Of a stretch of DNA of 64,000 nucleotides, positions 39,002 to 42,681 are shown piece after piece (position 1 is the first letter of the stretch; every line of letters begins with the position of its first letter). The notes beneath the pieces are model-generated. The model did no database searches. It had not been told where the DNA came from and worked only from the letters and a program-made list of their open reading frames with translations. The stretch covers positions 1 to 64,000 of the forward strand of contig NZ_VIRV01000013.1 in NCBI RefSeq assembly GCF_019754295.1, read 5' to 3'. The translations under genes and the position numbers were made by a program. The DNA is from Sellimonas caecigallum. GTDB lineage: Bacteria; Bacillota; Clostridia; Lachnospirales; Lachnospiraceae.

Positions 39002-39052
39002 GGAAAAGAAATTGGAATTACAAACATCAACGAAATAGGAAGTGTGATAATT

Positions 39053-40435
39053 ATGTATAAAATCAACTTTGAGAAACCTGTTCACATTCATTTTATCGGG
39101 ATCGGCGGCATCAGTATGAGCGGATTAGCCGAAATCCTTCTGAATGAGCACTTTACGGTAAGCGGTTCCGACAACAAAGAATCAAAACTTACAACGCACT
39201 TACGTGATATGGGCGCCAAAATCTCCATCGGACAGAAAGCGTCAAACATAGAAGACGGCATCGATGTGGTCGTGTACACGGCTGCGATCCATGAAGACAA
39301 CGAGGAATTCGCCGAGGCGAAACGACACGGTCTTCCAATGCTAAGCCGCGCAGAACTTCTCGGACAGCTTATGACCAACTATAAGCTCCCGATCGCAGTG
39401 GCAGGCACCCACGGGAAGACGACAACAACTTCCATGCTGTCCCACATCCTGCTGGCCGGAGACACCGATCCGACGATCTCCGTAGGCGGTATTCTCCCGG
39501 CTATCCACGGAAACATCCGCGTCGGCAATTCAGAAATCTTCGTGACCGAGGCCTGTGAATATACAAACAGCTATCACCACTTTTTTCCAAAGATCAGCAT
39601 CATCCTGAATATCGAAGAAGATCATATGGACTTTTTCAAAGATATCAACGATATCCGTGATTCCTTCCATACATTCGCAAAACTGCTCCCGGAAGACGGG
39701 ACTCTGATCATCAACGGAGAGATTGACCGTCTCAAGGAAATCACAGCCGATCTTCCATGCAGCGTCATCACTTATGACACAAAAGATCAGCACGCCGATT
39801 ACAGCGCTTCTGATATTGCATATGACGAGATGGGCAATGCGTCTTTCGAGCTCCTCATCCATGGCAGACCGTCCGGACAGATCCGCCTTTCTGTAAACGG
39901 GATCCACAATGTCTCCAACGCCTTGTCTGCCATCGCAGCCGCTCAGCTTCTGGATATCCCGATGGAAAAGATCAAGGAAGGGCTCCTTTCCTTTACCGGT
40001 ACAGACAGGCGCTTCCAGTACAAAGGAGACAAAAACGGATTTCACATTGTAGACGACTACGCGCACCATCCGACAGAGATCCGAGCCACGCTTCGTGCTG
40101 CAGCTAACTATCCGCACCGGGAAACATGGTGTATTTTCCAGCCGCACACTTATACCCGCACGAAAGCATTTTTCCATGAATTTGCGGATGCACTCTCCCT
40201 GGCAGACCATGTGATACTGGCGGATATCTATGCAGCCCGCGAGACAGACACCCTCGGTATGTCCTCCGCCCTTCTGGCAGAAGAGCTACGCACCAAAGGC
40301 TGTGATGCCACCTATCTTCCAAGCTTTGAAGATATCGAAACTTTTGTTTTGGAACATTGTAAGGAAGATGATTTGTTGATAACTATGGGCGCCGGAGACG
40401 TTGTAAATATTGGGGAAACGCTTCTTTCCATGTAG
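39053..40435 (+). CDS. murC: UDP-N-acetylmuramate--L-alanine ligase
   Basis: 460 residues. Rossmann-type start IHFIGIGGISMSGLAEIL, ATP loop AGTHGKTTTTSMLSHIL (about 110), central EACEYTNSYHHFFP, and C-terminal DDYAHHPTEIRATL. It adds the first L-alanine to UDP-MurNAc in peptidoglycan synthesis. AGGAAG suits ATG 39053; an in-frame GTG 9 bp upstream is less likely. Confidence 0.97.
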   Translation: MYKINFEKPVHIHFIGIGGISMSGLAEILLNEHFTVSGSDNKESKLTTHLRDMGAKISIGQKASNIEDGIDVVVYTAAIHEDNEEFAEAKRHGLPMLSRAELLGQLMTNYKLPIAVAGTHGKTTTTSMLSHILLAGDTDPTISVGGILPAIHGNIRVGNSEIFVTEACEYTNSYHHFFPKISIILNIEEDHMDFFKDINDIRDSFHTFAKLLPEDGTLIINGEIDRLKEITADLPCSVITYDTKDQHADYSASDIAYDEMGNASFELLIHGRPSGQIRLSVNGIHNVSNALSAIAAAQLLDIPMEKIKEGLLSFTGTDRRFQYKGDKNGFHIVDDYAHHPTEIRATLRAAANYPHRETWCIFQPHTYTRTKAFFHEFADALSLADHVILADIYAARETDTLGMSSALLAEELRTKGCDATYLPSFEDIETFVLEHCKEDDLLITMGAGDVVNIGETLLSM

Positions 40436-40467
40436 TTTTCCACAGAATCCACACCGAATTATCCACA
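40436..40467 (+). promoter_or_regulatory. cluster of three DnaA-box-like sites upstream of dnaD-dnaI
   Basis: TTTTCCACA (40436-40444), GAATCCACA (40445-40453) and a perfect TTATCCACA (40459-40467), all in the same orientation, start right after the murC stop codon. They lie 40-70 bp upstream of the dnaD -10 element. The consensus DnaA box is TTATCCACA. A role in regulating the primosome genes is inference. Confidence 0.55.
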
Positions 40468-40506
40468 AAACCGTTGAAAATAAGGCTTTTTCTCGGGAAA
40501 AGAAAA

Positions 40507-40515
40507 TGCTATAAT
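40507..40515 (+). promoter_or_regulatory. extended -10 promoter of dnaD-dnaI
   Basis: TGCTATAAT is a perfect extended -10, about 48 bp before the dnaD start; no good -35. Confidence 0.55.
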
Positions 40516-40562
40516 ACGTTTACTTTGATTTAGGAAAGACAGGGGTTTTAAAGGAAATGGGT

Positions 40563-41681
40563 ATGTTGAGCATCCGAAACGGTTCTGGTCATCAGTTTAC
40601 ACTGGTTGCCAATGATTTTATCGACAGTTATATGACAAAGGCAAACGGCGAATATGTGAAAGTATATCTGCTTTTGCTGCGCCGTATGGACAGTGGTAAA
40701 GGGTTTTCTGTCTCTGAACTTGCAGATATACTCGAGATCACGGAAGGAGATATCTTAAGAGCATTCCGGTACTGGGCAAAGGAGGGGCTGCTTACCATCG
40801 AATACGGAGCAGGCGGAGATATATCCGGTCTTTTGATGGGAAACGCGGAGACGGAAAATAAAAAGAATGAAACCACCGCAAAAACTCAGGACAGCCTTTC
40901 CTGTTCCGATCCGATTGCGGAAGCGGAATCCTCGCCGCAAGAGGACGAGCCTTGGGGAGCCATTCCGGAACACACAGAGGAACCTGCGCATGCGGACAGC
41001 TCCGCAAAAAAAGAAACAGCACCTCCGATCCGTGACATCGGTCAGTACAAAAGCCGGAAGGAATTCAAACAGCTTTTGTTTATCACAGAAAAATATATCG
41101 GCAGACCACTGTCCCCTTCGGATGTGGAGATGATGTCTTATTTTTATGATACCCTTCAGTTCTCTGCAGATCTGGTGGAATATCTTGTGGAATACTGCGT
41201 GGAAAATGGACACAAAAGCATGCACTACATCAAATCGGTGGCGTTGGCCTGGGCAGACGCCGGTATCTCCAGCGTCTCAGAGGCACGCAGATCTGCAAGT
41301 TTTTACAACAAAGACTGCTCTGCGGTCCTGAAAGCATTCGGCATCACGGGCCGTATGGCTGCTTCCGTGGAGACAGATTTTGTGAAGAAATGGTCCTCCG
41401 AGTTCGGTTTTACGCTGGATATCATCATCGAAGCATGTAATCGGACTGTGTCCGCCATCCATCAGCCAAGCTTCGAGTATGCGGATAAAATCCTGAGCAA
41501 TTGGCATAATAAAGGGGTGCACCACCTAAAGGATGTCTCTATGCTGGATCAGGCATACCTGCAGCATCGGTCCGCCAGGGCTTCCTCCCCTGCACCGACT
41601 GCGAAAAAAACGAAATTCAACAATTTTGAGGAACGAAACTATAACATGGAAGATCTGGAAAGACAGCTTCTCGAGAGCTAA
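40563..41681 (+). CDS. dnaD: DnaD-domain replication initiation protein
   Basis: 372 residues. An N-terminal winged-helix part (about 1-85; FSVSELADILEITEGDILRA), an acidic linker (about 95-150), and a DnaD C-terminal domain (about 165-240; DVEMMSYFYDTLQFSADLVEYL) with a second similar region (about 255-320). DnaD-type proteins help open DNA and load the helicase. AAGGAA spaced 6 nt from ATG 40563 favours it over ATG 40557. Followed after 16 bp by the helicase loader gene. Confidence 0.92.
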   Translation: MLSIRNGSGHQFTLVANDFIDSYMTKANGEYVKVYLLLLRRMDSGKGFSVSELADILEITEGDILRAFRYWAKEGLLTIEYGAGGDISGLLMGNAETENKKNETTAKTQDSLSCSDPIAEAESSPQEDEPWGAIPEHTEEPAHADSSAKKETAPPIRDIGQYKSRKEFKQLLFITEKYIGRPLSPSDVEMMSYFYDTLQFSADLVEYLVEYCVENGHKSMHYIKSVALAWADAGISSVSEARRSASFYNKDCSAVLKAFGITGRMAASVETDFVKKWSSEFGFTLDIIIEACNRTVSAIHQPSFEYADKILSNWHNKGVHHLKDVSMLDQAYLQHRSARASSPAPTAKKTKFNNFEERNYNMEDLERQLLES

Positions 41682-41697: not shown

Positions 41698-42681
41698 ATG
41701 GCTTTGACAAATTCACAGTACGACGCGATCATGAGGATGTATGAGAAGAAGCAGCTGCGTTCGCACGATCTGCTGAATGAGCATTTTCATGAAATATATG
41801 AAAAAATACCGCGGATCGCTGAGATCGACCGCAAGATCTCTCATGCCGGAGTAGAAAAGGCAAAAGCGCTCCTTGAGGGCGGGGACCAATCCATAGATGA
41901 TTTCCGGCGTCAGGTCGCACTTCTGTCCGAAGAAAAGAAGACGCTGCTTTTGGCGTACGGATACCCGGAGGATTATCTGGAGCCATCTTACGAATGCAGC
42001 GACTGCTGTGATACCGGGTACATAGACGGGAAAAAATGCCGCTGCTTTCAGAAGGCCGAAATCGACCTTCTATACACGCAGTCCAATCTTCAGGACGTCC
42101 TGAATGCTGAAAATTTCCGTTCTTTTCGTCTGGATTACTACTCATCGGATTACATCGACCCGGTCAGCCGCAGATCTTCGCTGGAGATGGCAAAAGACGC
42201 ATTGGATGTATGCCGTTCCTTTGTCGATTCTTTTTCCGACAGCTTCCAGAATCTTTTGATCTATGGAAATACCGGAGTTGGCAAAACTTTTCTTACCCAC
42301 TGCATCGCCAGGGAACTCATTGACCGGATCCATTCCGTCATTTATGTGACTGCATCCCAGCTTTTTGAACTTCTTGGGAACAGGGAATTCGGGCAGCGCA
42401 CTGAAGACATCCATACCGGTTCTCTGTTGGAGAGCTGCGATCTGCTCATTATCGACGATCTAGGCACGGAACTTACAAATTCATTTACGGTCTCTCAGCT
42501 TTTCATCTGCCTGAACGACCGGATCATACAAAAAAAATCGACAATTATCTCTACCAATTTGTCGCTAAATGAGATAAAATCTATTTACAGTGAGAGGACC
42601 TTCTCCCGCATCAGCAGCAATTTCCGCCTGCTGAAACTTGTGGGGGATGATATCCGAATAAAGAAGAAACTAATGAAATAA
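41698..42681 (+). CDS. dnaI: DnaI/DnaC-type helicase loader ATPase
   Basis: 327 residues. A cysteine cluster (CSDCCDTGYIDGKKCRC, about 99-115) is a probable zinc-binding N-terminal site as in DnaI. AAA+ part: Walker A LIYGNTGVGKTFLTH (about 185), Walker B LLIIDDLGTE, sensor STIISTNLSLNE, Arg finger region YSERTFSRI. It loads the replicative helicase. AAAGGAG precedes the ATG. Paired with dnaD. Confidence 0.93.
   Translation: MALTNSQYDAIMRMYEKKQLRSHDLLNEHFHEIYEKIPRIAEIDRKISHAGVEKAKALLEGGDQSIDDFRRQVALLSEEKKTLLLAYGYPEDYLEPSYECSDCCDTGYIDGKKCRCFQKAEIDLLYTQSNLQDVLNAENFRSFRLDYYSSDYIDPVSRRSSLEMAKDALDVCRSFVDSFSDSFQNLLIYGNTGVGKTFLTHCIARELIDRIHSVIYVTASQLFELLGNREFGQRTEDIHTGSLLESCDLLIIDDLGTELTNSFTVSQLFICLNDRIIQKKSTIISTNLSLNEIKSIYSERTFSRISSNFRLLKLVGDDIRIKKKLMK

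Follow-up and report, generated by a model that had tools for sequence, protein, structure and literature searches.

The window, a 64,000-nucleotide stretch of the Sellimonas caecigallum genome, carries a row of three predicted DnaA boxes in front of the dnaD-dnaI promoter. This layout is repeated across an entire order of Clostridia, and the row is therefore very probably a real control element. Its sequence features suggest that the three boxes probably form a DnaA operator of this promoter, placing the genes for helicase loading under the influence of the replication initiator.

The box array and its promoter

The upstream gene, murC (39044-40435, + strand; an open reading frame with Pfam Mur_ligase domains), ends with a TAG stop codon at 40433-40435, and the array begins at the very next base. 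Box 1, TTTTCCACA (40436-40444, +), has one mismatch to TTATCCACA and starts 74 bp 5′ of the −10 hexamer. Box 2, GAATCCACA (40445-40453, +; start 65 bp 5′ of the −10), abuts it with no gap, giving a 9-bp period, and has two mismatches around the core TCCACA. Box 3 follows after a further 5 bp and is a perfect TTATCCACA (40459-40467, +; start 51 bp 5′ of the −10). Direct reading of the sequence bears out the original prediction of three same-orientation 9-mers in 32 bp between murC and the extended −10 of dnaD, including the claim that the third is perfect. The middle 9-mer would not qualify as a DnaA box by itself. Its flank in relatives is AAA, TTT or TTA while the TCCACA core is kept, and the register of boxes 1 and 2, with this core at a 9-bp period, is also found in relatives and sister genera. 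On the opposite strand, a one-mismatch box, TTATCAACA (40374-40382, −), lies within the end of the murC coding region, 62 bp 5′ of box 1; an equivalent minus-strand box has the same spacing in many genera.

The predicted dnaD-dnaI promoter combines an extended −10, TG-C-TATAAT (40507-40515, +; hexamer 40510-40515), with a non-canonical −35 region, TTTTTC (40487-40492, +), of the family's own type. The dnaD-like primosomal gene (40557-41681, +) encodes a DnaB_2 domain of the DnaD/DnaB loader family (Pfam PF07261, E 2e-39). It is followed after 16 bp by a dnaI-like helicase-loader gene (41698-42681, +) of the IstB/DnaA-type AAA+ class (Pfam PF01695 and PF00308), probably in one operon with dnaD. 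Further downstream lies a gene whose Pfam match is phosphoribosyl-pyrophosphate-synthetase-like. Translation of dnaD may start at a second ATG (40563) rather than the first (40557), because an AAAGGA sequence lies very near the first ATG (region 40550-40565).

One box by itself means little here, since lone boxes are common in the window. TTWTNCACA occurs 12 times against 5.4 expected, boxes with at most one mismatch occur 24 times against 15.5 expected, and individual boxes are enriched about twofold. The array packs two good boxes, plus one that has just the core, into 32 bp, closer together than chance would place several TTATCCACA/TTWTNCACA 9-mers. A genome-wide search for TCCACAN{3,10}TCCACAN{3,20}TCCACA returned a single match in 2.67 Mb, the murC-dnaD array itself, and none of 200 dinucleotide-shuffled versions of the window contained a three-box direct array.

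Conservation across relatives and linkage to dnaD

A search for DnaD located its gene in 295 of the family's 299 genomes. The sequence upstream of dnaD was then examined in 90 cases, each correctly oriented, with dinucleotide-shuffled versions of these regions and the opposite strand as controls. By alignment, murC is the gene upstream of dnaD in 88 of the 90. At least two same-strand boxes lie between murC and dnaD in 82 of the 90 genomes (shuffled mean 0.5; opposite strand 8) and abutting boxes with a 9-bp period precede dnaD in 72 (shuffled mean 0; opposite strand 0), figures to be read as counts and not as independent trials, since the samples were ranked by similarity and the genomes of the order share descent and murC-dnaD synteny. 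The original prediction had named a lack of conservation in close relatives as its own refutation, and the boxes are conserved.

The exceptions are few. One region that scored zero among the 90 (L135/G146) reflects a short-region artefact, and its full murC-dnaD gap has two perfect boxes. Boxes are absent from three family genomes in which the murC-dnaD gap is only 12-89 bp, which leaves no space for a separate promoter either. In one region (L003) the array is missing although the promoter seems present, and three others (L029, L141 and L171) have lost most boxes and keep one each. Abutting boxes also occur in 16 of 26 dnaD upstream regions sampled from other families of the same order, often in a two-cluster layout. 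Beyond the order, a pair of same-strand boxes is present in none of 27 dnaD upstream regions from the class, and dnaD does not adjoin murC there; a class-wide element was rejected on this evidence.

The array travels with dnaD, as is seen where murC and dnaD have been separated. In one family genome (G301), a gene for a LytTR-type regulator lies between them; the boxes are found ~254-275 bp before dnaD, and the 3′ end of murC has an ordinary hairpin and no boxes. Ten further genomes in which murC does not adjoin dnaD likewise lack a box array 3′ of the murC stop codon. Retention of the boxes with dnaD after a gene insertion, together with their absence where a promoter has no space, ties the sites to the promoter.

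Promoter geometry and the proposed action of DnaA

Spacing was compared among the 77 family members whose promoter is clear. In this set the extended −10 (TG..TATAAT) is near-invariant, partly by construction because the −10 was picked by its match to the consensus. The −35 played no part in that choice. It starts with TT, has G at the third position in 0% of the 77 promoters, unlike TTGACA, and is preceded on its 5′ side by an A-rich stretch. The last box ends a median of 69 bp before the −10 (IQR 59-70), and the starts of proximal boxes cluster at 75-79, 84-88 and 96-97 bp before it. At a period of ~10.5 bp, R is 0.51 for proximal boxes versus 0.20 for distal boxes (distal R 0.43 at period 11), a quantised spacing that the 9-bp box period itself explains in part. 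The short-gap clade offers a cleaner comparison. In eight sister genera of this clade, a three-box array lies at 84-86, 75-77 and 61-63 bp from the −10, and the three genomes of the window's genus have the three-box array at 74-75, 65-66 and 51-52 bp, one helical turn closer to the promoter. The boxes are thus kept with the gene at a constrained distance from its promoter, as is expected of a DnaA-regulated promoter. A stretch resembling AACCCTTGATTTTACTGG or AACCCAGTATTTTCAAGGGTTT is also conserved between the proximal boxes and the −35 in family dnaD promoters (for example in L018, L027, L122, L124, L151, L164 and L167), and this stretch may be a further operator.

Order-wide conservation and the spacing to the −10 are good support for the view that the boxes are working DnaA sites linked to the dnaD-dnaI promoter, and this part of the original prediction stands. 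Its larger claims, that DnaA regulates the operon and that initiation capacity would follow the level of DnaA-ATP, are ones we infer. DnaA molecules would sit next to one another on the direct repeats, ~60-80 bp 5′ of the predicted transcription start. With the start site assumed at 40522, the boxes are centred near −82, −73 and −59. Class-I-type activators use positions in this range, and by analogy the dnaD box array may occupy a class-I activator position. DnaA on the conserved helix face would then influence RNA polymerase where an extended −10 is paired with a conserved poor −35, activating the promoter from this class-I-like upstream position, and helicase-loading capacity would track DnaA availability. 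Three features, the poor −35, the upstream location and the phase, tip the balance somewhat towards activation and away from repression. The second, promoter-distal cluster that most relatives carry is not explained by simple activation.

Repression is possible, though the somewhat less likely sign of control. A DnaA filament nucleated at the boxes would reach the promoter and turn the loader genes off at DnaA excess. The shared orientation of all boxes is compatible with this, and B. subtilis DnaA, which appears to activate sda, apparently represses several other targets, namely ywlC, vpr, yyzF-yydD, trmE-noc and ywcI-sacT (PMC4447404). However, the boxes end at least ~40 bp 5′ of the −10 with no overlap, and the pairing of a conserved poor −35 with an extended −10 resembles a promoter in need of help.

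Alternative roles and related DnaA systems

A rather unlikely alternative is that the cluster titrates DnaA and so delays re-initiation, its position next to dnaD being incidental. The B. subtilis DBCs and E. coli datA are, like the dnaD array, multi-box clusters outside oriC, and they bind DnaA and affect initiation timing; deletion of six clusters in B. subtilis led to earlier initiation, and restoring one gave partial relief (PMC5295017). Direct arrays of good boxes would suit such a role, as would the further clusters found elsewhere in relatives and the ori-proximal location of dnaD in most complete genomes (median ~0.17 of the half-chromosome). Yet titration needs no fixed promoter distance, and here both the spacing and the phase to the −10 are constrained. 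The boxes also stayed with dnaD after an insertion behind murC, are lacking where promoter space is lacking, and number only three in the window, one of them weak. The array differs from DBCs and datA in its fixed position relative to a promoter and in its tie to dnaD. Titration could nonetheless be an added role that coexists with an operator, and not only its rival.

Identity with oriC was ruled out, since dnaA lies at C51:15492-16859 with boxes of its own and the window is on contig C5, so that the array is not adjacent to dnaA or dnaN. In single-contig relatives, dnaD and dnaA are 45-519 kb apart in 12 of 13 genomes and 1259 kb apart in one; in the window's draft genome they are on separate contigs. 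The clostridial oriC, which is bipartite and arranged around dnaA, resembles the dnaD array in having an identical box sequence and boxes in direct arrays (PMC7561715; family dnaA loci); it differs in that the dnaD array is not next to dnaA.

Two arrays are present in most relatives: the distal array starts 1-4 nt after the murC stop codon (often with boxes at +1, +10 and +22), and the proximal array precedes the promoter. The window has just one, placed in the distal register yet at the promoter-proximal distance. In 60 of 87 family genomes, a distal box and its inverted copy (ATCCACA...TGTGGATT, then T residues) form the base of a hairpin (seen among relatives L011-L179; e.g. L142, L144 and L151). 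Because the box pairs with an inverted copy ahead of T residues, the murC terminator of these relatives is likely built from a DnaA box. Both this hairpin and the closeness of the distal array to murC would fit a cluster that belongs to murC or its terminator, with boxes persisting as terminator-stem material. For the window array such an origin is very improbable and was rejected: no box-based hairpin follows murC there, where the fold is no better than in shuffles, and neither G301 nor the ten other genomes with a separated murC have a box array after its stop. A proximal array without a terminator is also usual. Chance matches to a short AT-rich motif are the weakest explanation of all, for although one-mismatch boxes are not rare in the window, an array that is single in the genome, absent from shuffles and kept across the order is extremely unlikely to be accidental, and this reading was rejected.

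Similar arrays are found at a few other loci. Family genomes carry 0-6 copies each of the exact 18-mer TTATCCACATTATCCACA, in most cases 0-3, and the reversed control sequence is absent from them. Among the TTATCCACATTATCCACA sites listed in genomes with a known dnaD location, 38 of 76 lie before dnaD on the same strand. Some of the other sites examined are at dnaA (oriC-type), and most precede hpf, the gene for the ribosome hibernation factor. Abutting boxes occur in 16 of 30 sampled hpf upstream regions (examples among L198-L202, L204, L208, L211, L212 and L274-L303), ~200-390 bp before hpf (long form) and often in the secA-hpf intergenic region; among these 30, the hpf upstream regions of the window's genus have no abutting boxes. 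In two relatives (regions L207 and L209), abutting boxes near 2764 and 3022 (after orientation) precede a small gene; its product begins with MAKVSKDMTIGEIL or MAQITKNTTIGELV and looks DUF1858-like by eye. In the window's own genome, perfect boxes at 2433, 2566 and 2577 of another region (L196; G000:C51:64500-70000), ~50 kb from dnaA, precede a gene resembling a NuoE/thioredoxin-like ferredoxin subunit.

DnaA is already known as a transcription regulator. Like the DnaA-regulated promoters of B. subtilis, including dnaA-dnaN, the dnaD array is a box cluster at a promoter for which DnaA would be the transcription factor; it differs in that its direct repeats abut one another and stand at a set distance upstream of a helicase-loader promoter. 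The available portions of the two sources do not name dnaD or dnaI among B. subtilis DnaA targets (PMC4447404, PMC8203912). The Caulobacter DnaA regulon likewise includes genes of the replication machinery with predicted boxes, the dnaB helicase gene and dnaQ, but in another phylum and for other genes, a helicase there and loaders here, and the part of that report at hand describes no comparable array (PMC8203912). E. coli DnaA binds box pairs 2-3 bp apart and has a regulon that includes replication genes (PMC11317965). Close spacing is common to both, whereas the main pair in the window is gapless, with a 9-bp period, and the third box comes after 5 bp. The literature covered holds no description of DnaA control of dnaD or of a DnaA-box array at dnaD-dnaI, which is weak evidence of absence. 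With other DnaA targets known, and dnaD and dnaI not among them in the portions available, the dnaD array would be a new case within known DnaA regulation.

Control of dnaD by DnaA would have a further consequence. DnaD is reported to inhibit or disrupt cooperative DnaA binding in B. subtilis (PMC5295017), so that DnaA control of dnaD would create a feedback loop around initiation. If DnaA activates dnaD-dnaI, a negative feedback loop would be closed through DnaD. On a broader and quite speculative view, the order may have a dedicated DnaA circuit, in which the phased array activates dnaD-dnaI and, in most members, a second array sits in the murC terminator. DnaA occupancy could thereby link read-through out of a cell-wall gene with loader synthesis and initiation, with negative feedback via DnaD, and the hpf array would bring ribosome hibernation into the circuit. 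The way in which helicase-loading capacity is matched to the initiator is not yet settled, and the transcriptional role of DnaA is poorly mapped beyond a few model species. A deeply conserved, precisely spaced candidate DnaA operator on the loader operon offers a directly testable case.
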